Below, in pieces: positions 34,582 through 64,000 of a stretch of 64,000 nucleotides of DNA (the stretch's first letter is position 1; each line of letters opens with the position of its first letter). The stretch is from Gammaproteobacteria bacterium (GTDB lineage Bacteria; Pseudomonadota; Gammaproteobacteria; Nitrococcales; Nitrococcaceae), in contig JAUILK010000001.1 of NCBI GenBank assembly GCA_030433275.1, positions 1 through 64,000 on the forward strand. The letters are read 5' to 3'. The notes under the pieces are model-generated. The model was not told where the DNA came from. It did not search any database and saw nothing but the letters and a program-made list of their open reading frames with translations. Position numbers and translations under genes: made by a program.

Positions 34582-35223
34582 ATGAAAAAATTAATTCGCG
34601 GGATTGTTGATTTTCGTAACAATGTCCAAGAAGACTATCGCAAAGCTTTCGGAAAATTAGCCACAGGGCAGCGCCCTGACGCTTTGTTTATCGCTTGTTC
34701 TGACAGCCGTGTGGTTCCGAATACTTTTGCCTCCACAGACCCTGGAGATCTTTTTGTCCTTCGCAATATAGGCAATCTGATCCCCTGCTGCAGCAAGGCA
34801 AGCTACTCGGAATATGCGGGCATTGAATTTTCTATCGAATACCTCAATATTTCTGACATTATTGTTTGTGGCCATTCTGAATGTGGTGCCATGAAAGGCT
34901 TGCTGGACAAAATCAGCGGAGATCATGGCCTGGCTGGTTGGCTTGAAAATGGGAAAAAAAGTTTGAGGCGCTTTCAAAAGGGTGAAAGCCTAGACAACTC
35001 CTTATCTGAAGTGAATCAACTTTCGCAGCTCAATGTTTTGCAACAACTTGAAAATCTCAAAACTTATCCTGAAATTGGAAAACGTGTCGAAACAGAAGAA
35101 CTCCATCTTCACGCTTGGTGGTTTGATATCGCAAAAGCTGAGGTTTATTGTTACGAAAAAGAACTAAAGAGATTTGTTATTATTGACGAAACCCAAGCAG
35201 ATAAACTTTTATCTGAAATGTAA
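34582..35223 (+). CDS. Beta-class carbonic anhydrase
   Basis: A 213-residue zinc enzyme interconverting CO2 and bicarbonate. Zinc ligands are Cys39 (ACSDSR), His98 and Cys101 (CGHSECGAM), with the Asp41-Arg43 dyad of the active site. The length and motifs are complete, so the gene should be functional. The coding sequence is AT-rich and Lys/Asn-rich compared with all neighbours, and it is flanked by transposase remnants, a clear sign of transfer. A bicarbonate transporter gene lies 7 kb downstream but is not linked in an operon. Confidence 0.95.
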   Translation: MKKLIRGIVDFRNNVQEDYRKAFGKLATGQRPDALFIACSDSRVVPNTFASTDPGDLFVLRNIGNLIPCCSKASYSEYAGIEFSIEYLNISDIIVCGHSECGAMKGLLDKISGDHGLAGWLENGKKSLRRFQKGESLDNSLSEVNQLSQLNVLQQLENLKTYPEIGKRVETEELHLHAWWFDIAKAEVYCYEKELKRFVIIDETQADKLLSEM

Positions 35224-35698: not shown

Positions 35699-36283
35699 TC
35701 AGGGCCGACTCCATCCCCCACCCTGGGGCAACCTCACCGCCGCGCTTGGTGCCGATGCCTCGAGTGCAGCTTCGATCAGGGCCAGGTTTTGCGGGGCATC
35801 AGGCACCATAAGGCCACGCCAGTGGTGCACAATGCGGCCGGCACGGTCAATGAGGAAGGTCTCCGGCACACCCAAAACCCGAAAGCGCTTACTAAAACGA
35901 TTTCGGGCATCACGCCAGATCGGGAAACTCACGTCGAGCGCTTCAATATAGCGCTCGACGCTCACATCGGCGCGCCCTTCGTCAATATTGACCCCGACCA
36001 TTATAAAGCCACGCTCCCGGTATTTGCGGTAAAGGGCTTCAAACCCCGGGATTTCCTGGCGGCAGGGAACACACCAGGTCGCCCAGGTATTAAGCAGAAC
36101 CACTTGGCCACGCAGCGAAGCGAGTGTCACTTCCTCGCTGCCGCCGAGTACCCGTGCCGTATACTCCGGCGCGGGTCGCGTCGCGGCTGCAGCTGACAGC
36201 CCCCAACAAGCCAAAGCGATGACCGTAGCAACCAGAGCGCCCAAAAAACGGCTGGTGCGGCGAGCCAAACGCGGCCCTCTCAC
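35699..36283 (-). CDS. TlpA-family periplasmic thioredoxin
   Basis: A 194-residue thioredoxin-fold protein with an N-terminal signal or anchor (about 10-34) and the active site WCVPC (Cys71, Cys74). The family pattern LRGQVVLLNTWATWCVPCRQE and the cis-Pro segment GVPETFLIDRAG are intact. Such proteins reduce periplasmic disulfides, often for metal-site or cytochrome assembly. The start overlaps the end of the Asp-box protein gene by four bases, so the two are coupled. The neighbour has a CACC motif that could be its substrate, which is inference. Confidence 0.9.
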   Translation of the reverse strand: MRGPRLARRTSRFLGALVATVIALACWGLSAAAATRPAPEYTARVLGGSEEVTLASLRGQVVLLNTWATWCVPCRQEIPGFEALYRKYRERGFIMVGVNIDEGRADVSVERYIEALDVSFPIWRDARNRFSKRFRVLGVPETFLIDRAGRIVHHWRGLMVPDAPQNLALIEAALEASAPSAAVRLPQGGGWSRP

Positions 36284-37698
36284 TGCCCTGCGCCTCGCCC
36301 GAGGTGAACGAGCCCAATCTTGATCGCACCACCAGCCATATGCTTGTCCATATGCCCTTCACTCGTTTGCGTGCCCCAGCTAACCAGAGCAGCCTCATCG
36401 AGTGTAGTAATATCCGGAGCTGTACCTGGCCAGCTTGCCGAAAACGTCACCTCGCCGCGCGGCGAGATCCGCGCGATCTGGATTCGGTCCTCATCGCCCC
36501 GGCGATCCTCGAAAGCCACCCAGGCATTGTCGTCGCTATCCAGAGCGAGTTTGACATCCCCATAAGGGACCCACTCATCGTTGAGCAGGGTGATGGGCTT
36601 CGAGAAGGTCTGCCCCTGATCATCCGAGCGCGCATAGAACACTCCGGGATGGGATTCGGTACCCGTATACCAAGCGGCATGCAACCGTCCATGCGCATCG
36701 ACCGCGAGCCCTGAGCTGACGTCCGGACAGCCGCTGATCTTGAAACGATCGTTGTGGATCTTGGCGGCCTTGGACCAACTCATACCTTCATCGCGCGAGG
36801 TGGAGATGAAAAGATCGCGAACCTCGTCCATAGAGCCCTTGAGCTCTTTCCACGCCCCGCGGGTAGTCGCGTACAACGGACCGTCTGCGCCTTGGGCCAT
36901 CTGGGTCCCGCAGCAGGCGCAGGTCGGTTTAGACACGAGCCGGCTCGCCTCGAAGCTCTTGCCGCCATCCCGCGAGCGGGCCACGCGCAGCTGAGTGGGC
37001 GGCGTTTGCCGCCATGGCGGAGCCTCTTGGTGCTCGAGAAAGTACCCAAGCTGCTCCCGAAAATCGAGAAAAGAGACATAGAGCGCCCCTTGCGGCGCGA
37101 TGAACAGATTGAGCATTCCAACCGAGTTCGGCACCCCCTCGAGTGCCTCACTCGCCACATCCACGGGGGCCGCAAAGCGGCGCCCACCATCGTGCGATAC
37201 GGCGAGCCGGAAGACGTTGCGACCGTAAGGCCAACCACCGGGTTTGTAGCCCACGTCACGATGCTGGTAAAGCACGTACACCTCACCCTTGGGACCTATT
37301 GCGACGCGGGTCGGGCTCACGGTATGAGATACCACATGATCCTGCGGCGTATTGACCACCACCGGAGCACTGAATCGGTGCCCACCGTCATCCGAACGCG
37401 CCAGCAGCGCTTGCACCTCGGGGTCGTCTCCCCGCTCACCCTCCTTTGCCTCGGGATCCGTCCCCGGCGTTTCCTGCGCCCATGCCAAGTACACCGTGCC
37501 TGAGCGCCGGTCAACGGCCACCGTGGGGTTGCGGGCATCGGTTCGCGTGAGCGTAACCGGTTCGGACAACTCCAGCGCAGCCACCCCAGGATGCGCAGCC
37601 GGCGCCACCTCGACCACGGCGAGAGCGCCGACAAGCCCCAGCCCCGCAAGCAGGAGAATGTGCCGTGTCCAGGTGAGTGAAGACAAGCTTTGCGGCAC
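36280..37698 (-). CDS. Exported Asp-box (sialidase-like) beta-propeller protein with CxCC motif
   Basis: A 472-residue protein with an N-terminal signal/anchor (about 12-34). It has five Asp-box repeats: SDDGGHRF (102), SHDGGRRF (168), SRDGGKSF (242), SRDEGMSW (301) and SDDQGQTF (358). This is the sialidase/BNR propeller fold. The catalytic Arg triad and Tyr-Glu pair of sialidases are not evident, so enzyme activity is doubtful. A CACC motif at 260-263 and a Cys at 324 could bind metal or form disulfides. It is the promoter-proximal gene of a two-gene operon with the TlpA thioredoxin. A palindromic operator lies 109 bases upstream. Confidence 0.75.
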   Translation of the reverse strand: MPQSLSSLTWTRHILLLAGLGLVGALAVVEVAPAAHPGVAALELSEPVTLTRTDARNPTVAVDRRSGTVYLAWAQETPGTDPEAKEGERGDDPEVQALLARSDDGGHRFSAPVVVNTPQDHVVSHTVSPTRVAIGPKGEVYVLYQHRDVGYKPGGWPYGRNVFRLAVSHDGGRRFAAPVDVASEALEGVPNSVGMLNLFIAPQGALYVSFLDFREQLGYFLEHQEAPPWRQTPPTQLRVARSRDGGKSFEASRLVSKPTCACCGTQMAQGADGPLYATTRGAWKELKGSMDEVRDLFISTSRDEGMSWSKAAKIHNDRFKISGCPDVSSGLAVDAHGRLHAAWYTGTESHPGVFYARSDDQGQTFSKPITLLNDEWVPYGDVKLALDSDDNAWVAFEDRRGDEDRIQIARISPRGEVTFSASWPGTAPDITTLDEAALVSWGTQTSEGHMDKHMAGGAIKIGLVHLGRGAGQ

Positions 37699-37806
37699 CG
37701 CAGTCGCCCTCCTTCGGCCTATGGTGCAATGGCGCCACCCCAGGCGGAGCGCGGCCAGCCGTGCTGATCAAACCGAAGTATTATAAGGAGTCGACCTTCG
37801 CAGACA

Positions 37807-37824
37807 ATGCGACAAAATGTCGCA
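37807..37824. promoter_or_regulatory. Palindromic operator, site 1
   Basis: The sequence ATGCGACAAAATGTCGCA is a palindrome of half-sites TGCGACA and TGTCGCA around a 3-base centre. It lies upstream of the minus-strand propeller-TlpA operon and has the same half-sites as sites 2 and 3 in front of the TonB receptor. It is not a Fur box. The cognate regulator is not seen in the window. Confidence 0.7.
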
Positions 37825-38070
37825 CCCGGCTTTTGCCGCATGCTCCTCACTACAGCCCTCGTCGCCGACTCGCCCCCAAGTCGCGACCAGGAAAGCGAGT
37901 GCAGCTCCCATCACCCTGAAAACGAGTTCGCCAACCCGTGTTCCAGCGCTTCCCATAAAAAGGGGACACAAAAAAATTGGCACAAATTAGCTAGATAACA
38001 ACTCAGGTTAATCAATAACAGAAAATAACATAAAAATCGCTGAAGATAATTCATCGTTTCATACGAATAA

Positions 38071-38088
38071 ATGCGACATATTGTCGCA
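38071..38088. promoter_or_regulatory. Palindromic operator, site 2
   Basis: ATGCGACATATTGTCGCA, a perfect palindrome of the same half-sites as site 1. Its centre is 24 bp from that of site 3, so two dimers could bind on nearly the same face of the helix. Confidence 0.75.
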
Positions 38089-38095
38089 CCCATAC

Positions 38096-38113
38096 TGCGA
38101 CAATATGTCGCAT
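38096..38113. promoter_or_regulatory. Palindromic operator, site 3
   Basis: TGCGACAATATGTCGCAT, the reverse complement of site 2. It is followed at fixed distance by a segment that is also conserved behind site 4 at 41375, including a TATCGT/TATCAT element that may be the promoter -10 box. Confidence 0.75.
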
Positions 38114-38206
38114 TCCAATCCGTTGAACTCCGCCTTATCGTTACGAGCGTTTCGCCTCATGGATAAGTGAACGTCAAAACGTTCATCAACCTACTGCAGC
38201 CTATTT

Positions 38207-38242
38207 GGACACCGATCTTGCCGGATCGGTGTCCGATTTTTT
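38207..38242 (+). terminator. Intrinsic terminator in the receptor leader (possible attenuator)
   Basis: A perfect 11-bp stem GGACACCGATC/GATCGGTGTCC with a 6-base loop is followed by GA and T6. It lies between the operators and the receptor start codon, so it must be bypassed for expression. A smaller hairpin TGAACGT/ACGTTCA at 38168-38185 lies just before it. The same terminator is conserved at 41486-41521. Confidence 0.8.
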
Positions 38243-38287
38243 GCGCTCTCCTCGCAACCAAAAGACCAACATAAGGAGACTCAAGAA

Positions 38288-40417
38288 ATGCGCATGCGCC
38301 CCCGCACGGCCGTTGTCGGCCTGCTCGTGGCACTGAGCACGGCCCAAGCCGACGAGCAGCACGCCGGTGCGCCTGCCGGGTCAGCCGAGCAAGATCCGGC
38401 CAGTCAGCTGCCGGCCTTGACCGTATCCGCCAGCCCCGTCTCCGGCTACAGCGTCCCCGACGCCTCCACCGCCACCAAAACCGACACCCCGATCCTGGAA
38501 ACGCCGGTGTCGGTGCAGGTCATTCCGCAGCAAGTGCTGCAGGACACGCAAGCCCGTTCGCTGCCCGACGCCGTCAACGGCAAAGTCAGCGGCGTGCTCG
38601 GGCGCACGGGCGGCGGGTTTCTGTACGACAATTTCGTGATCCGCGGTTTCAGCGACACGAGCGGTTTCGGAACGGCTTACCGCAACGGCCTGATAAACCG
38701 CCAGGACATCTACGATGTCTCCAACATCGAGCGCATCGAAATCCTCAAAGGGCCGGCCTCGGTGCTGTATGGACGCATCGAGCCCGGCGGCATGGTCAAC
38801 TACGTCACCAAAAGACCGCTGGACGAACCCTATTACGCCATCCAGCAACAAATCGGCAATTACCATCAGCAACGCACTTCGCTCGACCTGACCAGCCCGG
38901 TGGACGACGATCACACGCTGCTTTATCGACTCAACGCCGCCTATCAGAACAATGAATCGTTTCGGGATTTCGTCGCCAGCGAGCGGACCTTCATCGCGCC
39001 CGTGGTGACGTGGCGCCCCAACGCGCACTTCGAAGCCAACGTGGAACTCGAATACAAGCGAGATCGCTTCCAGGCCGACATGGGCATCCCGGCCGTGGGC
39101 GAGCGCCCCGCGCCGATCCCGACCAAGCGCAGCCTGACAGACGGTCCAGGGCGCCAGTTTTTGGAGGAACTTCTGATCGCCTACGACTGGACATGGCGTT
39201 TGAATGAGAACTGGAAGGTCACGCAGCGCTTTCACTGGCGGGATTGGACGTTGGACCACCGCCAGACGCTCCCGCGCAGGCTGGCGGTGGATAATCGGAC
39301 ATTGGATCGATGGCAGCATAATGCTTCCCAAAAGGTAGAAACCCAGGTCGCCAGTCTCGACATCAACGGCCACTTCGAGCTCCTCGGCACCCGCCACAAT
39401 CTTCTCATCGGCGTCGACGACTTTCGAAGTGAAACGCGTTCCCCGTCGAATTTCAGCCCCGCGCCATCGATCGACATTTACAACCCAATCTATGGCCAAA
39501 TCGATTTCGACGCTCTGTCCGACAACGGCTACTTCTACCGCAAGCAGAGATGGAACGGCATCTACATTCAGGATCAGATCACGCTGGGCGGGAGGCTGCA
39601 TCTGCTTCTCGGCGGGCGCTACGATTGGACGAAATCAGGCCAGAATTTTTCGCCGACTTCGGTGGGCGACGCGAAATCAAACCGGGATGATCTGACCAAC
39701 AATCAGTTCAGCCCACGCGCCGGCCTGCTATACGAGCTCACTGACGCGCTGTCGACCTATGCGAGCTACAGCAAATCATTCGGCATCAACAACGGTCTCG
39801 CCGCCGATGGCAGCACGTTCGACCCCGAGCAGGCCGAACAGTACGAAATCGGCTTCAAAGGAGGCTGGTTCGACCAGCGCCTGACCGGCTCGCTCGCACT
39901 GTTCGAGCTGACGCGGGACAATCTGCGCACGGCCGACCTCTCCAACCCAGGCTTTCAAGTTTTGACGGGGAAGGCAAAAAGTACAGGGCTCGAGTTCGAT
40001 CTGGCCGGCCAGCTTACCGACCATCTCAAGCTGCTCGCAACCTACGCCTACACCAACGTGCGCTACACCCGCAACAATGACGGCTTGGAAGGCAACCGGT
40101 TCGAAAACGCGCCCCGGCATCAAGGCAGCCTATGGACCAACTATCAACTCAACGCCGAGCTCAACGGAGCCTTGGGGGTCATCGCGGTGGGTAAGCGCAA
40201 GGGCGACCGGGTCAACTCGTTTCAACTGCCGGGCTACGGTCGGGTCGATGCGATGCTCTCCTATGCCCCACGCCTTGGCCCAAGCCGCATGAGACTGCAG
40301 CTCAACATCTACAACCTGCTGGATAAGAAATACTACGCCAATTCGGGCGGCAGCCGCTGGAATATAATGCCCGGCGCGCCGCGCAGCATACTGGGATCCG
40401 TTCGATTCGAGTTCTAA
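38288..40417 (+). CDS. TonB-dependent siderophore/metallophore receptor
   Basis: A 709-residue outer-membrane receptor. The signal peptide is 1-20 (AQA). The plug domain follows (ETPVSVQVIPQQVLQDTQAR, then IERIEILKGPASVLYGRIEPGG). The 22-strand barrel ends in the OMP-type sequence GSVRFEF. The plug pattern GPASVLYGRIEPGGMVNYV is typical of the siderophore receptor subfamily. No N-terminal STN signalling domain is present, in contrast to the decayed paralogue at 41566. AAGGAG precedes the ATG. Upstream are two palindromic operators and a leader terminator, suggesting regulated expression by a non-Fur factor. The ligand is unknown. Confidence 0.92.
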   Translation: MRMRPRTAVVGLLVALSTAQADEQHAGAPAGSAEQDPASQLPALTVSASPVSGYSVPDASTATKTDTPILETPVSVQVIPQQVLQDTQARSLPDAVNGKVSGVLGRTGGGFLYDNFVIRGFSDTSGFGTAYRNGLINRQDIYDVSNIERIEILKGPASVLYGRIEPGGMVNYVTKRPLDEPYYAIQQQIGNYHQQRTSLDLTSPVDDDHTLLYRLNAAYQNNESFRDFVASERTFIAPVVTWRPNAHFEANVELEYKRDRFQADMGIPAVGERPAPIPTKRSLTDGPGRQFLEELLIAYDWTWRLNENWKVTQRFHWRDWTLDHRQTLPRRLAVDNRTLDRWQHNASQKVETQVASLDINGHFELLGTRHNLLIGVDDFRSETRSPSNFSPAPSIDIYNPIYGQIDFDALSDNGYFYRKQRWNGIYIQDQITLGGRLHLLLGGRYDWTKSGQNFSPTSVGDAKSNRDDLTNNQFSPRAGLLYELTDALSTYASYSKSFGINNGLAADGSTFDPEQAEQYEIGFKGGWFDQRLTGSLALFELTRDNLRTADLSNPGFQVLTGKAKSTGLEFDLAGQLTDHLKLLATYAYTNVRYTRNNDGLEGNRFENAPRHQGSLWTNYQLNAELNGALGVIAVGKRKGDRVNSFQLPGYGRVDAMLSYAPRLGPSRMRLQLNIYNLLDKKYYANSGGSRWNIMPGAPRSILGSVRFEF

Positions 40418-40706
40418 GGCCTCCGGTGCTCGCCACCGCAAGCGATGGGAGCCGATTCGATAGTGGGGATTCGCTTTTCTGAAAAGGTCGACCGCGCAAT
40501 CGAGGTACTTTTTGCGAATCCGAAACGAGCAACGATTGACCACCCACCCAGGTTACGTCGTTGTGCGATGCTTTTAACACTCTATACTTGTGCTTGGTGC
40601 CTCAACATGGGCACCCATACACTGTTTATCGTTGGTATATCCCATGACAACAGAAAGCTAGGATACCGGCAGTCAAGGTCATTCCTACCCTATAAGGAGA
40701 GATACA

Positions 40707-41123
40707 ATGAAACATAAAGTTGGCTCAATACTGGCAGCGCTGGTTTTTGCCGCTTGCGCTTCAGCTTATGCCGCAGAAGATCACTCTGGCCAGGACATGA
40801 CGATGCATCACATGCACATGATGATCAATCATGCTGTCGAAATGGCTGCAGAAGGATCCAATCTCATAATGCTCGGCCAAATGGGAATGACCGAGGATGT
40901 TGACAAATTGAGCATTAGCCACGGCGAAATGATGATTAAAAATGCTCAATCACTGATGGAAAAAATCGTGAAAGGGAAGCCGATGCAATCGCTGCATAAA
41001 GAAGGTGCAACGCCGAAGACATCAGAAGAAATGGCGGATACCCATGACCTTGCCAAATCCGCCATGTCTTATATCGATATGCTATCCCGCATGTCACAAG
41101 CACCTGACACAAACACCCAGTGA
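40707..41123 (+). CDS. Met/His-rich periplasmic protein
   Basis: A 138-residue exported protein with a signal peptide of about 22 residues (cleaved after AYA). The mature N-terminus has a striking metal-ligand cluster, DMTMHHMHMMINH (30-42), and further Met and His residues follow in an otherwise helical protein. Such Met/His clusters bind Cu(I)/Cu(II) in periplasmic copper proteins, so a copper chaperone or sponge is my inference. It is 289 bases downstream of the receptor gene in the same direction, with AAGGAG before the ATG. No named family is recognised. Confidence 0.7.
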   Translation: MKHKVGSILAALVFAACASAYAAEDHSGQDMTMHHMHMMINHAVEMAAEGSNLIMLGQMGMTEDVDKLSISHGEMMIKNAQSLMEKIVKGKPMQSLHKEGATPKTSEEMADTHDLAKSAMSYIDMLSRMSQAPDTNTQ

Positions 41124-41142
41124 GCTGAAAGGGTCTAAAAAA

Positions 41143-41198
41143 ATCGACCCGATGGCGGGTTTCAAATCACCAAACTCACCCCCTACCGTCGGGTCGAT
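41143..41198. repeat. Inverted repeat ATCGACCCGA / TCGGGTCGAT
   Basis: A perfect 10-bp inverted repeat, extendable to about 16 bp with two mismatches, separated by 36 bases, just after the Met/His-rich gene. No T-run follows. It could form a weak hairpin or mark a former element. Confidence 0.4.
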
Positions 41199-41374
41199 CT
41201 TCACAGGAGCAAGTTCTGTTACCGTCGCCCCATAATATAATCGCATCCGCACCCATCGCGCCAACTGCAACATCGGCAAATTCTTTAAGCACCAAATAAT
41301 TTTGACAGTCAAATAATTACCCAGCCTAGATTAAGCGACTCTTTTGAAAAAAATGACTGCCATCCATTAGTAAG

Positions 41375-41392
41375 TGCGACAATATGCCGCAT
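41375..41392. promoter_or_regulatory. Palindromic operator, site 4
   Basis: TGCGACAATATGCCGCAT matches site 3 with one changed base. The following 60 bases also align well with those after site 3, so this is a duplicate of the receptor promoter region. Confidence 0.65.
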
Positions 41393-41485
41393 TTCAATCT
41401 GCCAAATCCTGCCTTATCATTACGATCGCTTCGCACCATGGATAGGCTGCGCTGATAGGTTCTCCACACGACTGCAACCTTATCT

Positions 41486-41521
41486 GGGCACCGATCTTGC
41501 GGGATCGGTGCTCAACTTTTT
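41486..41521 (+). terminator. Conserved leader terminator, second copy
   Basis: The stem GGGCACCGATC/GATCGGTGCTC (one wobble pair) with a 6-base loop is followed by AAC and a T-run. It corresponds in position and sequence to the terminator at 38207-38242 and stands in front of the truncated receptor gene. Confidence 0.7.
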
Positions 41522-41565
41522 ATGCGCTTCTCGCAACCCAAAAAAATTCAGAGAAAATTCGGGAG

Positions 41566-41814
41566 ATGCGGCAACGCCCCCTCCTCGCAATCGCCGTCGG
41601 TTTGCTATTGATACTGAACACCGCTCGGGCCGGGGAACGACGCTTCCAGCGCGACCTCGAAACACAAGATCTCACCGCCGCTCTAAAAGCGGTTGCCAGC
41701 AAGGTCAACGTCAAACTCCGCTATACCGATGACCAGGACCGTCCGAGCTTCAATCCCGGAGCGGCTCCTAACCGATTAAACAGAAAATTTGACACCTCCG
41801 ACCATTCTTGTTGA
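41566..41814 (+). pseudogene. Truncated STN-domain TonB receptor
   Basis: The start ATG at 41566 opens a signal peptide (LLAIAVGLLLILNTARA) followed by an STN-like segment (LETQDLTAALKAVASKVNVK). After about 55 residues the homology stops and the frame ends at 41812-41814. STN domains head TonB receptors that signal to FecR/sigma systems. The plug and barrel are gone, so this is a relic. Its leader is a duplicate of that of the intact receptor. Confidence 0.65.
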
Positions 41815-41892: not shown

Positions 41893-43434
41893 ATGGCACC
41901 TGTTGATCCATTGCAACACACCGGCCGTTTCGCAGGAGGCGTTCGCGGAGACTTGCGCCGCCGAGTCCTGCCTTGGTATGGCGACGATTTCCGTCAAGGG
42001 CTGCATCCGAAGGCCCTCGCCTCCGTGCTTTTCCTCTTTTTTGCCTGCCTCGCGAACGCGGTGGCCTTCGGTGGCCTTACTGAAGTCGTTACCGATGGGG
42101 CCATCGGCACTGTCGAGATGATCGTGGTCACCGCCGCCGGCGGTGTCATCTTCGCGCTCTTTTCGGGACAGCCCCTGACCATCCTCGGCGGGACCGGGCC
42201 GATCGTTATCTTTACCGGACTCCTCTATACCGCCTGCGAGCGCTACGGTATCCCTTTCCTGACTACTTACGCATGGACGGGTGTTTGGTCGGGCATCTTC
42301 CTCATCATTCTCGCGCTTACCGATGCCTCAGCCATGATGCGTCTGTTCACCCGTTTCACCGACGAGATCTTCGCCACGCTCATCGCAGTCATTTTTATCG
42401 TCGAGGCGGCGCAGAAGGCCATCTTTCCAGTTTTCATCCACGACAGCGATCCCACCCTCGAACTCGCGAGTCTCGTCGTCGCCCTCATGACCTACGCTTT
42501 GGCGCGCGGAATGAAGCAGTTCACACAGACGCCCTATCTGCGGCGGACGATTCGCACCCTTATCTCGGATTTTGGCCCCGCACTGGCCATCGTCATCGCA
42601 ACGGCTTTCTCCTTTCTGTACGTCGACGTCCCTTTCGCGCGACCCCAAGTGCCCGAAACGTTCGCGACCACTACCGGCCGACCCTGGCTCGTGGATCTGA
42701 TGAGCGTTCCTACCTGGGCGATCTTCGCGACCATCATCCCGGCGCTCATGGCAACGATTCTGCTGTTTCTCGATCAGAACATCACCACACGCCTGGTCAA
42801 TGCTCCCAGCTACCAGCTGAAAAAAGGCGGCGGCTTCCACCTCGACCTGCTCGTGCTCGGCTTCATCGTCGTAGGCGCTTCCGTTTTCGCGCTCCCGTGG
42901 ATCGTCGCCGCCACGGTGCACGCGCTCAACCACGTCAAAAGCCTGGCCGAAACGGAAATCGTCGAGGTCGACGGCCAACGGCGCGAGCGAATCGTCGGCG
43001 TGCGTGAGAACCGTCTCTCCGCCCTGACCATCCATATCCTCATCGGCGTATCGCTCCTTCTGCTGCCGCTATTCAAGCTCATCCCCATGGCCGTTCTGTT
43101 CGGTCTCTTCCTCTATATGGGGTTCGTCACCCTGGCGGGGAACCAGTTCTTCGATCGCGTCACGCTCTGGTTCACCGATCGGAATCTCTACCCGAATACG
43201 CACTATGTTCGCAACGTCCCACGCAGGATCATCCATTACTTCACGGCCATCCAGGTAGCGTGCTTTGCGGCACTCTGGATCTTGAAATCGAGCCCCGTCG
43301 GCATCCTCTTCCCGGTGCTGATCGCCTTGCTCGCACCGCTGCGCCTGTTGCTGGACCGCTTCTTCAAGCGCGAACATCTCCAGGCCCTTGACGCCGACGA
43401 GGATATGGATGAAACCGAGGTCGCCGTCCACTGA
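41893..43434 (+). CDS. SLC4-like bicarbonate/anion transporter
   Basis: A 513-residue membrane protein of the HCO3 transporter (anion exchanger, SLC4) family, rare but known in bacteria. It carries ALFSGQPLTILGGTGPIVIF and, in the second half, LDQNITTRLVNAPSYQLKKGGGFHLDL in pieces typical of this family. About 12 to 14 hydrophobic segments fit the 7+7 inverted-repeat fold. The C-terminal tail is acidic (DADEDMDETE). It may import bicarbonate or exchange anions; the ion and coupling are not deducible. AAAGGA precedes the ATG. It could supply bicarbonate that the nearby carbonic anhydrase interconverts. Confidence 0.9.
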   Translation: MAPVDPLQHTGRFAGGVRGDLRRRVLPWYGDDFRQGLHPKALASVLFLFFACLANAVAFGGLTEVVTDGAIGTVEMIVVTAAGGVIFALFSGQPLTILGGTGPIVIFTGLLYTACERYGIPFLTTYAWTGVWSGIFLIILALTDASAMMRLFTRFTDEIFATLIAVIFIVEAAQKAIFPVFIHDSDPTLELASLVVALMTYALARGMKQFTQTPYLRRTIRTLISDFGPALAIVIATAFSFLYVDVPFARPQVPETFATTTGRPWLVDLMSVPTWAIFATIIPALMATILLFLDQNITTRLVNAPSYQLKKGGGFHLDLLVLGFIVVGASVFALPWIVAATVHALNHVKSLAETEIVEVDGQRRERIVGVRENRLSALTIHILIGVSLLLLPLFKLIPMAVLFGLFLYMGFVTLAGNQFFDRVTLWFTDRNLYPNTHYVRNVPRRIIHYFTAIQVACFAALWILKSSPVGILFPVLIALLAPLRLLLDRFFKREHLQALDADEDMDETEVAVH

Positions 43435-43507: not shown

Positions 43508-44290
43508 TCAGGCCAGCAAAGACGCCCAACGTTTGTAACGCTGCAGATAGTGCTGGGTATAGCTGCACACCGGCCTCACTTTGAAGCCCTGGGCCTCGAT
43601 GGCCTCGAACGCCCGCTCCAGCAGGCGGGCGCCCAAGCCCTGGCCACGGCGGTCGGCCGGCACCTCAGTGTGCACCAGCTCGAGCACCGGTCCATGCCGG
43701 CGATAAACGAGCTCACCCTCGCCGCCGTCGTGGAACTTCAGCACGAAACGCTGGCCGGCCTCGTCGTGAACCAGAGTATCTTCACGTGCCTCGGGCGGTT
43801 TGCCCGTGCCGTCGAGAGCCGCATCCAAGGTTCGACACGCCAGATCAAGGCGCCAGTGGAAGTCGTTGTAGATCACCCGTCCCTGCCGATCGATGACGAT
43901 CCACCACGGCGTACCGCCTGTGCGGTAAGCGGTCATCGTGGCCGGGCGCGGCTGGGCATCATCCTGGCCGAACGGTAGCGTTAAGCCGTAACGTCGCTGC
44001 ATCACGCGGCGCTGTGCTGCACTGTTGGCATCGTAGCCCTCGAACACAGTCTGGATGACACCGAACTGCACACCGCGATCCGCGTATTCCCTCGTCAACG
44101 TCTGCAGGGTAGGAAAACCGCTGCTGTGGCATCCCGGACACCAGGCCTGGAAACAGTAGACCACCCGCACGGCCTCAGGATGATCGGCTAACCGCCAGGG
44201 CGCGCGCGGCTCACCCCTGCCGTTGATCCAATCGGCGACGGCCAGCTCGGGCGCGGCTTGACCAAGAATTCCATACGGCACGTTAAACAC
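43508..44290 (-). CDS. Thioredoxin-like / GNAT acetyltransferase fusion
   Basis: About 260 residues with two parts. The first, up to about residue 165, is a peroxiredoxin/TlpA-like thioredoxin domain with the redox motif WCPGC and the GTPWWIVIDRQG cis-Pro segment. The second, roughly the last 90 residues, is a short YjdJ-type GNAT acetyltransferase domain (HTEVPADRRGQGLGARLLE). Such a fusion is unusual. The start is uncertain: the best choice is GTG at 44290, because the upstream open frame is unlike the family. It lies 150 bases after msrA on the same strand, suggesting an oxidative-stress role. Confidence 0.78.
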   Translation of the reverse strand: MFNVPYGILGQAAPELAVADWINGRGEPRAPWRLADHPEAVRVVYCFQAWCPGCHSSGFPTLQTLTREYADRGVQFGVIQTVFEGYDANSAAQRRVMQRRYGLTLPFGQDDAQPRPATMTAYRTGGTPWWIVIDRQGRVIYNDFHWRLDLACRTLDAALDGTGKPPEAREDTLVHDEAGQRFVLKFHDGGEGELVYRRHGPVLELVHTEVPADRRGQGLGARLLERAFEAIEAQGFKVRPVCSYTQHYLQRYKRWASLLA

Positions 44291-44439
44291 CTCGTTTATC
44301 CGTTGCCGGTGAGGATGTCCCAGCAGCGATTCAAGATGGTTTCGCGGCCTAACGGCACGCTCACAGGCAGGACTTACGTTGCGCTCGGCACACGGTGACC
44401 TCCCGTGCAGCTCTCGCCTCGCGTGTATCCCTGCCGAGT

Positions 44440-44955
44440 TCAGGCAGCGCCGGCACGGCGCGGCAGTTTCCAGTCCGGTCGCACATAATGGCAAGTGTAG
44501 CCCTGGGGATTGCGCTGCAGATAGTCCTGGTGCTCAGGCTCAGCCTCCCAGAACGGCCCCGCAGGCGCCACCTCGGTCACCACTTTACCCGGCCACAGGC
44601 CGGAAGCATCCACCGCTGCGATCGTCTCCTCGGCGATCCGGCGCTGGGCATCATCGCAGTAGAAAATGGCGGAACGATAGCTCATGCCGCGGTCATTACC
44701 CTGCCGATTCGGCGTGGTCGGATCGTGGATTTGGAAGAAGAACTCGAGTAGCCTGCGGTAACTGATCCGCGACGGGTCGAATACGAGCTCAATCGCTTCC
44801 GCGTGGGTGCCATGATTGCGGTAGGTCGCGTTCTCCACATCGCCGCCGCTATAGCCCACGCGGGTGGACACGATGCCGAGTTGACGACGCAGAAGCTCCT
44901 GCATGCCCCAGAAGCAGCCGCCAGCAAGAATCGCCTTTTCGGTGGAATCAGCCAT
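44440..44955 (-). CDS. msrA: Peptide methionine (S)-sulfoxide reductase
   Basis: MsrA repairs the S-epimer of methionine sulfoxide in proteins. The 171 residues include the catalytic motif GGCFWG near the start and the family segments [20 protein letters not shown] and [13 protein letters not shown]. There is no signal peptide, so it is cytosolic. Its start overlaps the msrB stop codon by one base, so the two are translationally coupled. Confidence 0.96.
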
Positions 44956-61472: not shown

Positions 61473-62234
61473 TTACCTCCTCGGCTCGTTGGTGGAATCC
61501 AGACGTTGCAACAGTCGCTCAACGACCTCCCGATATTGCTTTTGCAGATAAAAGTGCCCACCCCGGAACAACAGAATCCCCAGCATCCAGGGCGTCACGT
61601 CCTGCCAGGCACACGCTTCGCTTTCACTGATTTCGTCGTCGTCGAGTGGAAAGCACACATCTACCGGAGCCCCGACCCGCTCGGGAATATCGCGCGCATA
61701 GCTTTCGATGAGTCGATAGTCATTGCGCAACATGGGCATGAACACCTCTCGCATCACGGGTTCGTCCAGAGGAGTACTGCCGCCGGAAAGGCGTCTTATA
61801 TCCTCAAGCAGATCGTCATCGGTCTGCTGGTGCAAAGAACTTTCACGCTGCCGGTGGGGAGCGGGGTGGGCGGAGACGATCAAGCGTTCCAGAGGTAGGG
61901 CCCGCTGCTCGAGTCGTAGCGCGACTTCGTAAGCCAGCGCGGCACCGAGGCTGTGCCCGAACAGCACCAGCGGCACGTCGGCGAACTGCACCAGGGCCGC
62001 AGCGGTTTCATCCGCCAACGACTCCAGCGAGCGCGCAAAGGGTTCGGAATACCGCTCCGCGCGCCCGGGGTACTGCACCGCCAACAGATCGATATGGCCG
62101 GGCAACGCTTTGCTCCAGTCACGGTAATAGCTGGCGCTGCCTCCGGCATGAGGCAGGCAAACCAGCCGGGCGCGCGGCTTCGGAGAGACCCTAAGCGCGC
62201 AGATGCCACGGCTGGATGGCTGAACCGCTCTCAT
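61473..62234 (-). CDS. Type II thioesterase (PchC/YbtT-like)
   Basis: A 253-residue alpha/beta hydrolase that clears misloaded acyl groups from peptide synthetase carriers. It starts RLVCLPHAGGSASYYRDW, has the nucleophile in VLFGHSLGAALAYE and the catalytic His in FRGGHFYLQ. The start at 62234 overlaps the ligase stop codon by four bases. The 61 codons upstream in the frame lie within the ligase gene and are not part of it. The presence of this enzyme predicts peptide synthetase genes nearby, probably beyond the right edge. Confidence 0.92.
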   Translation of the reverse strand: MRAVQPSSRGICALRVSPKPRARLVCLPHAGGSASYYRDWSKALPGHIDLLAVQYPGRAERYSEPFARSLESLADETAAALVQFADVPLVLFGHSLGAALAYEVALRLEQRALPLERLIVSAHPAPHRQRESSLHQQTDDDLLEDIRRLSGGSTPLDEPVMREVFMPMLRNDYRLIESYARDIPERVGAPVDVCFPLDDDEISESEACAWQDVTPWMLGILLFRGGHFYLQKQYREVVERLLQRLDSTNEPRR

Positions 62235-63838
62235 GAGGCCACCCTGGCGTGAAACTGCTCCGCCAGTTGACGGCGATTGACCTTGCCCAATCGGGTAAGC
62301 GGAAAACGGTCGATGATTTCCAACCGATCCAGCAGCTTGTACGCCGCCAGCCCCGATGCGGAAAGGTGAGCGTTCAACTCGGAGAGCCGGGGTGCTTCGC
62401 CTCTGGCGATAACGCACGCGCAGTTACATTCGCCCAGAGTGTTATGCGGCATCCCGATCAAAGCTACGTCGGCGACACTGGGATGCGACAACAAGTGGTT
62501 CTCCACATCCTCCACCGGTACTTTTTCGCCCCCCCGGTTGATGATGTCCTTCTCACGCCCCTCCACCACCAGATAGCCGCTGGCCAGCCGGCGCACTCGA
62601 TCACCGCTCCGATAAAAGCCGCCCTCGGTGAAGGAACGGCGATTATGTTCCTCGGCGCGGTAGTAGCCGCGCAGAGTGTAGGGCCCGCGTACCAGCAACT
62701 CACCGATTTCTCCGTCCGGCAAATCACGCCCCTGATCGTCCACCACCCGAACCTCGTCGCCGGGAGAAATAGGGCATCCCTGGGTGTTGAGCACCAATGA
62801 TCCCGGGTCCCCCGGCGCAGTCATGCATAACAGCCCCTCGGCCATGCCGTAAACCTGCTGAAGACCGCACCCCAGTATCTCGCCCACCTGTGCCGCAACC
62901 TCCACCTTCAGACGTGCCCCTCCCACCTGCAGGCAAGTTAGGCTGCTCAAATCGGCTTCGGTAAGCGGGGCGAATTCCAGCCAGACCCGTACCAGCGTGG
63001 GAATCAGCGCGGCAACCGTAATCCCCTCTTTCTCGATCAGTGCAAAAGCCGTATCGGGGCTGGGGTCAGGGCAAAGCACCACCGTCCCTCCCGCATCGAA
63101 AGTGCCGAGCAGCCCCGGACACGCCAACGGAAAATTATGCGCCACGGGCAACACGGCCAAATAACGGGTGTCTTCAGTAAAACCGGCCCGTTCAGCGCTC
63201 GTGCGGGCGTTATAGAGATAGTCGTTGTGTGTACGCGGAATCAGCTTGGGCAATCCCGTAGTGCCGCCGGACAATAACATTACGGCAACGTCCTCGGCGG
63301 CCGGCGCGGGCACTGAGCGCGGCTCCCCTTCCAGAGCCGAGAACGGAGCAAAACTTCCCGGTTCTCCAACCACGAAGACCGAGCGCAGGGTCTCGACATT
63401 GTCCAGCACCGTTCTGGCCATCGGCCGATAATCGAATCCGAGATGCGTGTCGGGGATCACATAGGCAACCGCCTGTGAAGCTTCCGCCAAGTGACGAATT
63501 TCCTTCTCTCGATGCGCCGGCAAGGCCAGTACCGGAATTACACCAATCCTGAAAAAAGCCAGGCACAAAGCAACAAACTCCGCCTTGTTGGGCAGCTGCA
63601 GCAGAACCCTCTGTCCCGGTTCAAATCCAACCTCCAGAATGCCCCCCGCTAACCTCTCTACCCAGGCATCCAGTTCCCGATAAGACCATTGCCGACTGCC
63701 TTCGATCAGCGCTGTGCTGACAGCGAATTCGTCGGCACAGCAGCGCCACCACTCTCCCAGATCGATACCCCGCCAATATCCTTTTTCCCGGTAATGCTCC
63801 GCGAGTTCCACCGGCCAGGCCACACAACCTTCCAACAT
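62231..63838 (-). CDS. pchD: Salicyl-AMP (aryl-AMP) ligase
   Basis: A 535-residue stand-alone adenylation enzyme of the DhbE/PchD/YbtE family. It activates an aryl acid and loads it onto a carrier domain. Motifs are LLSGGTTGLPKLIPRTHNDY, GMAEGLLCMT, the core GFYRSGDRVRRL and the C-terminal lysine motif PLTRLGKVNRRQL. Salicylate is the likely substrate, since pchA and pchB follow. GGAGG precedes the ATG. It is the first complete gene of the operon in this window. Confidence 0.93.
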   Translation of the reverse strand: MLEGCVAWPVELAEHYREKGYWRGIDLGEWWRCCADEFAVSTALIEGSRQWSYRELDAWVERLAGGILEVGFEPGQRVLLQLPNKAEFVALCLAFFRIGVIPVLALPAHREKEIRHLAEASQAVAYVIPDTHLGFDYRPMARTVLDNVETLRSVFVVGEPGSFAPFSALEGEPRSVPAPAAEDVAVMLLSGGTTGLPKLIPRTHNDYLYNARTSAERAGFTEDTRYLAVLPVAHNFPLACPGLLGTFDAGGTVVLCPDPSPDTAFALIEKEGITVAALIPTLVRVWLEFAPLTEADLSSLTCLQVGGARLKVEVAAQVGEILGCGLQQVYGMAEGLLCMTAPGDPGSLVLNTQGCPISPGDEVRVVDDQGRDLPDGEIGELLVRGPYTLRGYYRAEEHNRRSFTEGGFYRSGDRVRRLASGYLVVEGREKDIINRGGEKVPVEDVENHLLSHPSVADVALIGMPHNTLGECNCACVIARGEAPRLSELNAHLSASGLAAYKLLDRLEIIDRFPLTRLGKVNRRQLAEQFHARVAS

Positions 63839-63847
63839 CTTTGCCTC

Positions 63848-64000
63848 CTACTTTGCAAATGCGGGTGAGCTTCGCGCCGCGTCGGCGCGCGCGCCGGCCG
63901 GGCGAATCTCCGCCCCGTGCGTCAACGTCTCAGGCAGCGGCAGCGAAAGGCCCTCCAATTCGATCCACAACACGCCGGTTTGCTCGGCAGGCGTCAAGGA
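63848..64000 (-). CDS. C-terminal end of an upstream gene, cut by the window edge
   Basis: The last 50 codons of a gene entering from the right, with TAG at 63848-63850, nine bases before the pchD start. The visible part (TGVLWIELEGLSLPLPETLT) has no clear family to me. It is most likely the next gene of the siderophore operon. Confidence 0.6.
   Translation of the reverse strand, partial: SLTPAEQTGVLWIELEGLSLPLPETLTHGAEIRPAGARADAARSSPAFAK

Follow-up and report, generated by a model that had tools for sequence, protein, structure and literature searches.

The 64,000-nucleotide stretch analyzed here (the window) forms the start of a 186-kb contig (JAUILK010000001.1) in a 3.41-Mb genome, and its host is Nitrococcus, a marine nitrite oxidizer. 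It contains a locus in which genes for an Asp-box propeller protein and a TlpA-type thioredoxin diverge from a TonB-dependent receptor gene, with a Met/His-rich protein and the remnant of a second receptor farther on (Table 1), and in which copies of the palindrome TGCGACA-N3-TGTCGCA stand before the propeller and receptor genes. Our comparisons, which are based on sequence, indicate that this palindrome is very probably read by RegA of the RegB/RegA (PrrBA/ActSR) redox system. The locus as a whole probably belongs to a regulon that is controlled by RegB/RegA and serves the import and periplasmic handling of copper, likely in the form of chelates, in which the TlpA protein would service the thiols of the propeller. 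Genomes, loci and contigs are designated below by G, L and C numbers.

An exact palindrome heads receptor and copper genes in Nitrococcus

The original prediction had joined these genes into one metal-import regulon by their shared palindrome. The palindromes it described are present, three exact and one with a single mismatch, at coordinates that had been given one base low. Three exact copies in the window compare with 0.0005 expected from the window dinucleotide frequencies, and eight copies genome-wide with 0.024 expected and none for the reversed control. With up to three mismatches the window holds six palindromes against 3.84 expected, a number that 17 of 100 shuffles reach, and with up to two mismatches the genome holds 21 against 16 for the reversed control, which is not above chance. 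Because loose matching gives chance-level counts, we regard the palindrome as specific at exact match only. Two degraded sites were treated as chance and left uncounted: a two-mismatch palindrome inside an ABC-transporter-like gene (contig position 74366) and a one-mismatch site inside an open frame (C89:789).

Exact copies number 8, 6, 3, 13 and 2 in five Nitrococcus genomes (32 in total), and 48 of 49 other genomes of the order have none, the remaining one holding a single copy with a GCG center. A relaxed pattern, run over the Nitrococcus loci chosen for holding exact sites, gave 39 exact or near sites, whose target classes were tallied by hand. Thirty-five of these precede genes for TonB receptors (21, one of them a remnant), PCu(A)C (8), the propeller (3), RegA (2) or CopC-CopD (1, at a distance of 637 bp). 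The other four have no assigned target: two lie at a contig start, one lies at a contig end with a leader that resembles receptor leaders, and one is at L038:8129. The recurrence of exact palindromes in the genus before TonB receptors, a PCu(A)C-TonB-ExbBD operon and CopC-CopD supports the claim of a single regulon.

Eleven tandem pairs of sites, spaced 23–25 bp, occur in the genus. One pair on contig 46 of the window genome heads a PCu(A)C-TonB-ExbB-ExbD operon (ExbB and ExbD named by eye) and has an OprC-like receptor gene ~1 kb off in the opposite direction; we assigned this pair to PCu(A)C and dropped a nearer 55% match to the window receptor as presumably spurious. Pfam confirms PCu(A)C and CopC/CopD under the palindromes. 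OprC is the only PDB match of the contig-46 receptor, and the OprC-like receptors score 181 and 190 of the 472 bits required by TIGR01778, under its cut-off. We also note that two palindrome-linked receptors and the propeller–TlpA pair lie in one stretch of Nitrococcus G035 (L042, 2333–10196), an arrangement that suggests local duplication of the module within the genus.

RegB/RegA as the candidate reader

The shared palindrome stands as predicted, but it fits the RegB/RegA redox system and not an unnamed metal repressor. The palindrome differs from the Fur consensus. A BlaI/CopY-type repressor was considered and rejected, there being no Penicillinase_R (PF03965) match in the genome. A survey of 369 gammaproteobacterial genomes, with RegA called at E ≤ 1e-25, found the palindrome with an A/T center in 24 genomes and its reversed control in three. 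RegA is present in 22 of the 24 palindrome genomes and in 101 of the other 345 (Fisher P = 1.2e-9, in a test that ignores relatedness and in which a few of the 123 RegA matches are partial, at 92–120 bits).

Closer ties appear in the surroundings of the sites, which were examined in 20 of the 24 genomes, the window genome included (G111, G119, G308, G353, the second site of G081 and the sixth of G226 lay outside this examination). The palindrome stands directly before regB(-regA) in five genomes from five families (L067, L072, L074, L075 and L100), and regBA is found within 3.5 kb of it in two more (L066 and L070). RegB of the five palindrome-headed loci scores 162–281 bits against NF033792 (149–281 over the six tested), and RegA of the palindrome-near regBA loci scores 145–213 bits against NF033791. 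Within Nitrococcus, G035 has regBA ~0.7 kb upstream of the tandem palindromes that head a receptor gene, and another regA in this genome is itself preceded, at ~207 bp, by tandem palindromes. The window genome has one regBA operon, whose RegB contains GGATNPF, HELGTPL and GRCRQAL stretches, corresponding to the GGxxNPF quinone motif, the H-box and the redox Cys of RegB. Its RegA reaches 190.5 of 250 bits (NF033791) and its RegB 231.6 of 350 (NF033792), both under the curated cut-off, and because no protein compared here reaches the NCBI equivalog cut-offs we speak of RegB/RegA homologues, not equivalogs.

The RegA consensus of Rhodobacter capsulatus quoted in PMC5506826, SSGNVRDNHYSNCSS, fits all five variants of the site, but this fit is weak alone because so degenerate a pattern matches 97 times in the 64-kb window. 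The RegA, RegR and PrrA consensuses differ although their helix-turn-helix (HTH) is identical, and an attempt to predict a RegA motif in Acidithiobacillus ferrooxidans gave none (PMC5506826). A literature search with the half-site strings listed papers that look unrelated by title and the start of the abstract. If the RegA site holds, the redox state of electron transport would be wired directly to copper supply in marine nitrite oxidizers and other gammaproteobacteria, and the 17-bp motif can be searched for in genomes.

The palindrome outside Nitrococcus

A TonB receptor lies under the palindrome in five of the 19 other genomes examined (G244, G396, G191, G184 and G138). Relatives of the OprC-like receptors are found directly under it in G396 and G191, in the latter beside regBA. 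A PepSY-like gene follows the receptor in G138, as do PepSY-like and ExbB-ExbD-TonB-like genes in G184. Other genomes have the palindrome near small exported or outer-membrane-like proteins, or near nothing nameable.

Several of these loci have features of their own. At L071 and L073 the palindrome precedes a TonB receptor and a PepSY-like gene, with ExbB-ExbD-TonB-like genes also present at L071; the L071 receptor is ~60% identical to the propeller-adjacent receptors of L095 and L096, and the L073 genome is without RegA. L064 and L065 each hold five exact or near palindromes within 6–9 kb, around DUF3570-like genes and small ‘HTRL’ exported proteins, and TlpA- and ApbE-like genes stand among those of L065. 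A YcnI-like identity considered for the ‘HTRL’ proteins was rejected, as they have no Pfam match. Palindromes at L072, L077, L080 and L081 precede outer-membrane-like proteins, some with an N-terminal CxxC or CCxxC (two tested, neither with a Pfam match), and at L081 the gene for such a protein is followed by one cytochrome c-like and one TlpA-like gene.

A four-cysteine propeller paired with TlpA

The propeller has five Asp boxes and only four cysteines, at positions 260, 262 and 263 (CxCC) and 324 (CP). Its orthologues in Nitrococcus mobilis Nb-231 and in an N. mobilis metagenome-assembled genome (MAG) are 89% identical, and the C-x-C-C...C-P pattern persists in 25 homologues, some with as little as 22% identity; it is present in every one of the nine rows of alignment A2, in one further Nitrococcus orthologue from A1 and at all 16 loci of a phylum-wide search. 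The fold model is of low confidence (mean pLDDT 57, pTM 0.68) and matches sialidases with a query TM of ~0.53; the PDB sequence matches are mostly sialidases as well. From the hydrophobic N-terminus we infer that the propeller is exported.

At its GTG start the TlpA gene shares four bases with the end of the propeller gene. TlpA has an 81% identical orthologue in Nb-231 and a 48% identical homologue behind the propeller of G035, where receptor, propeller and TlpA genes lie in a row under tandem palindromes; the same gene order is found in G135 (L096). In G124 (L095) the propeller is fused to a C-terminal CPPC TlpA-like domain, whose AhpC-TSA match of 24.1 bits is under the Pfam cut-off of 26. 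The shared operon and this natural fusion with a TlpA-like end support the partnership of propeller and TlpA in the original prediction.

Within the class, three of 369 genomes, the window genome included, match the first propeller profile at 1e-30. The phylum search gave 17 places in 16 of 398 genomes, or 16 loci in 15 genomes once the window's own was set aside. A TonB receptor gene lies directly upstream on the same strand at 14 of the 16 (13 by Pfam, L130 by BLAST); it is downstream at L137 and on the other strand at L127. Nine loci have a PCu(A)C gene near the propeller, all nine passing Pfam, and 11 have a neighboring protein with a TlpA-like WxxxCxxC-type stretch (nine by motif, L129 and L130 by eye). 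When such neighbors were put to Pfam, those of L123, L124, L127, L134 and L135 passed and those of L129, L130 and L133 failed. A DUF2946 gene stands ahead of the propeller operon at L134 and L135, and L126 reads receptor-propeller-CxxC protein-PCu(A)C-DUF1775-CopCD. At L130 (G614) the order is regB-regA-receptor-propeller-CxxC protein, with a receptor 42% identical to the palindrome-linked contig-12 receptor of the window genome.

Propeller homologues also occur in 47 plasmid records, and the four opened all have copper genes near: copper-resistance operons in two Sulfitobacter and one Roseobacter, and an adjoining CopC in Methylomagnum. Sets of predicted receptor, propeller and TlpA genes thus recur in unrelated bacteria, and the propeller–TlpA pair appears to be undescribed. 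In the literature within reach of the search, which excluded most subscription papers, no link of a sialidase-like propeller to copper receptors or TlpA was found, apart from a single TlpA reference in PMC13038864.

Receptors and the Met/His-rich protein

The window receptor scores 401.8 bits against TIGR01783 (cut-off 223.5), and its best PDB chains are named FoxA and the metal–pseudopaline receptor CntO. With this siderophore model above cut-off it is not of the OprC class, CrtA being outside the comparison. Of 20 other receptors compared, the one nearest to it outside Nb-231 directly precedes a propeller–TlpA pair in G035 (43%), and the window receptor is therefore probably part of the module, even should it bind a siderophore for iron, or for copper as well. 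Nb-231 has an intact form of the second receptor (793 amino acids) at the same place. The short open reading frame in the window, 70% identical to the N-terminal part of that protein, is rightly described as truncated.

In Nb-231, too, the gene for the Met/His-rich protein lies behind the receptor gene, and in G035 it and the PCu(A)C gene diverge from tandem palindromes that lie between them; these placements tie the Met/His-rich protein to the regulon. It has no match in Pfam (E 0.01) or NCBIfam (0.001), and no plasmid homologue at 0.001; its composition suggests a copper-binding role.

Promoters and leader terminators

The palindrome before the propeller adjoins TTGTCT-N16-TATAAT, whose hexamers and spacing are the same in the window and in the two Nitrococcus orthologues that have the site, although promoter-like sites in the region are not more numerous than in shuffles. 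This arrangement would place the center of the palindrome at about −43 from the start, a position suited to an activator. The tandem pair before the receptor would lie at about −41 and −65 if a CTTATC stretch conserved in the alignment is the −10 element.

Between the presumed transcription start and the start codon, strong intrinsic terminators are present in seven of the 13 receptor leaders inspected in the genus; four are without (C89_806, C12, C46_692 and the Nb-231 orthologue of C46_692) and two leaders are incomplete. RNAalifold on the seven gives 13 pairs, nine of which form the terminator stem, with changes on both sides at four of the 13, two of them within that stem. Terminator-like sites over the region (10) are not above shuffles (8.3), and Rfam gave no match above threshold on the leader, its one match being far below the gathering score. 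The leader terminator resembles an attenuator and is a candidate attenuator or short RNA; for the receptors that have it, it points to a second, post-initiation control.

A model for copper import and its alternatives

PCu(A)C, CopC/CopD, the OprC-like receptors and the copper operons around propeller homologues point to copper, which agrees with the metal suggested in the original prediction, and the two COX1-family genes of the window genome imply a demand for it. In our model RegB, a quinone/redox sensor by homology, would phosphorylate RegA, dimers of which would bind the single palindrome of the propeller–TlpA operon and the tandem pair of the receptor and activate both. Receptors powered by the co-regulated TonB-ExbBD would then bring a metal chelate into the periplasm. 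There the propeller would take up or strip copper with its CxCC...C set, TlpA would keep the propeller thiols reduced, and PCu(A)C would carry the copper on to oxidase assembly, with the receptor-leader terminator as a possible second control after initiation. More specifically, and tentatively, the Cys4 propeller and its dedicated TlpA may constitute an undescribed class of copper handlers in the periplasm, which would strip TonB-delivered chelates of their copper, or reduce it, before PCu(A)C receives it, with RegB/RegA tying import to respiratory redox in gammaproteobacteria and the leader terminator as a further gate. Copper acquisition pathways of bacteria are poorly characterized (PMC12914433), and the recurrent receptor-propeller-TlpA-PCu(A)C operon could supply the step that leads from the TonB receptor to the chaperone.

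A number of observations weigh against this model, in addition to the loose RegA consensus and the low scores noted above. The Bradyrhizobium japonicum RegR box GNGRCRTTNNGNCGC fits one of the five site variants, and the PrrA consensus YSCGGC(5)GWCRMA of Rhodobacter sphaeroides is not fitted, the half-site being GCGAC and not CGGC (by eye). None of the 369 class genomes reaches the curated RegA cut-off, nor does any RegA or RegB tested. The window genome's own regBA operon is without the palindrome at up to two mismatches, and the G614 cluster is also without it, having a half-site before the receptor only and a CxxC protein that matches no Pfam family at 0.001. Outside Nitrococcus only the five of 19 genomes listed above have a palindrome receptor, and no target could be assigned to many sites, class-level sites in L064, L065, L076–L080, L082 and L083 among them. 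RegA is not found in two genomes with the palindrome, G138 and G215 (best 76–77 bits), or in the fragmented Nitrococcus MAG G036 (best 77 bits in 660 contigs), which has the palindrome as well. It is conceivable from these cases that another regulator reads the palindrome and that its association with RegA is a by-product of a respiratory life style, but we consider this distinctly unlikely given that the palindrome immediately precedes regB in genomes of five families and also stands before one regA of G035, that RegA is in excess among palindrome genomes and that the window genome has no BlaI/CopY match.

The nature of the metal is less firmly indicated. The window receptor is of the siderophore type, so that iron is a possible cargo, and the alternative is that FoxA-like and STN-type receptors and TonB import ferric siderophores under RegA, perhaps the product of a nonribosomal peptide synthetase (NRPS) cluster, the propeller–TlpA pair being a neighbor with another role. 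The siderophore model above cut-off and the FoxA-type chains as best solved relatives are consistent with this, as is a pyochelin/yersiniabactin-like NRPS cluster ~21 kb downstream of the receptor (contig 61–88 kb). RegA affects ~40 iron transport genes in R. capsulatus (PMC5359404) and also iron uptake in Methylomonas, where chromatin immunoprecipitation led to the conclusion that it acts indirectly on a receptor and the tonB operon (PMC13274454). However, the NRPS cluster is without the palindrome at up to one mismatch, whereas the same palindrome precedes PCu(A)C-TonB-ExbBD and CopC-CopD; outside N. mobilis, the receptor most similar to that of the window, among those compared, shares an operon with propeller–TlpA; and the propeller homologues sit in copper operons. 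We therefore regard iron as a credible but unlikely alternative to copper. It would be very surprising if the propeller were instead an ordinary exported sialidase-like glycosidase, with TlpA as a general thioredoxin and the receptor neighborhood as a convenience of operon structure. Sialidases provide its best fold and most of its PDB sequence matches, and 14 of 15 among the plasmid matches listed are annotated as such, but the fold model has the low confidence given above, and the retention of all four cysteines in distant homologues, the fusion with a TlpA-like end and the copper neighborhoods argue otherwise.

Comparison with known systems

TonB-dependent copper receptors partnered by PCu(A)C are known, as are control of copCAB by RegR (PMC4064962) and copper binding by R. 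capsulatus RegA. The claim that no known system has this gene set holds only in part: copper-acquisition operons that combine a TonB receptor with PCu(A)C have been described (CrtA, OprC and B. japonicum pcu), but the propeller was not found named in them in the literature searched. CrtA (BfrG), encoded in the cruR-crtA-PepSY operon of Bordetella pertussis, takes up copper chelates as a TonB receptor. TonB-ExbBD, PCu(A)C and ScoI are encoded in some crtA operons, and the system is linked to heme-copper oxidases and has no Fur site (PMC12914433, PMC9426467, PMC13038864). The propeller operons headed by DUF2946, the CruR family, at L134 and L135 resemble this system. It differs in its control by CruR, encoded by an upstream open reading frame (uORF), whereas the window genome has no DUF2946 (PF11162) match and has the RegA-type palindrome instead. 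The words ‘propeller’, ‘sialidase’, ‘TlpA’ and ‘RegA’ are absent from the main text of PMC12914433, and ‘TlpA’ and ‘sialidase’ are absent from that of PMC9426467, which does mention AhpC_TSA genes. The copper-starvation operon of B. japonicum comprises the TonB receptor PcuB, the PCu(A)C-like chaperone PcuC and a membrane protein (cited in PMC12617631 and PMC9426467) and is headed by a cruR homologue (PMC9426467); L126 likewise joins a receptor with PCu(A)C.

The regulatory system has its counterpart in RegB/RegA (PrrBA, ActSR, RegSR, RoxSR), with homologues in the window genome and a site that fits the RegA consensus; it differs in its scores under the equivalog cut-offs and in its targets here, which are importers and copper chaperones. 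R. capsulatus RegA binds copper, and a copper switch at Cys156 has been proposed (PMC9147068). The window-genome RegA has no Cys next to the HTH, so this switch cannot apply in that form. GH33-type sialidases share the fold class and Asp boxes of the propeller but differ from it in the CxCC...CP set, the TlpA partner and the copper contexts.

Features of the locus and flanking genes

Table 1. Features of the metal locus in window coordinates
Feature	Position	Strand	Basis
TlpA-type periplasmic thioredoxin, 194 amino acids, WCVPC motif	35699..36283	−	Pfam AhpC-TSA 7.9e-23
Asp-box propeller, sialidase fold class, 472 amino acids, TCACCG stretch	36280..37698	−	Pfam BNR_2/BNR
Promoter-like TTGTCT-N16-TATAAT of propeller–TlpA operon, adjoins palindrome	37780..37807	−	
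Palindrome, candidate RegA-type site of propeller–TlpA operon, exact	37808..37824		
Distal palindrome of tandem pair before receptor, exact	38072..38088		
Proximal palindrome of tandem pair, exact, 24 bp from distal	38096..38112		
Intrinsic terminator in receptor 5′ leader, ahead of start codon	38205..38236	+	
TonB-dependent receptor, siderophore (FoxA) class	38288..40417	+	TIGR01783 above cut-off
Met/His-rich protein, 138 amino acids, 18 Met and 9 His	40707..41123	+	
Palindrome with one mismatch, before receptor remnant	41375..41391		
Leader terminator of receptor remnant	41485..41514	+	
Remnant of second TonB receptor, N-terminal part	41497..41814	+	Match to Nb-231 receptor

The NRPS metallophore cluster extends over window positions 61473–64000 and on contig C100 to ~88 kb (L139, L140) and includes two ABC transporters and an AraC-like regulator, all named by eye. 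Closer by, the metal locus is flanked on one side by a carbonic anhydrase gene (34582–35223) and on the other by an HCO3_cotransp (SLC4-type) bicarbonate transporter gene (41893–43434; Pfam 2e-163). An open reading frame at 43508–44494 combines a redoxin/TlpA-like domain with a small GNAT domain (Acetyltransf_CG) and adjoins msrA- and msrB-like genes, both identified by eye.

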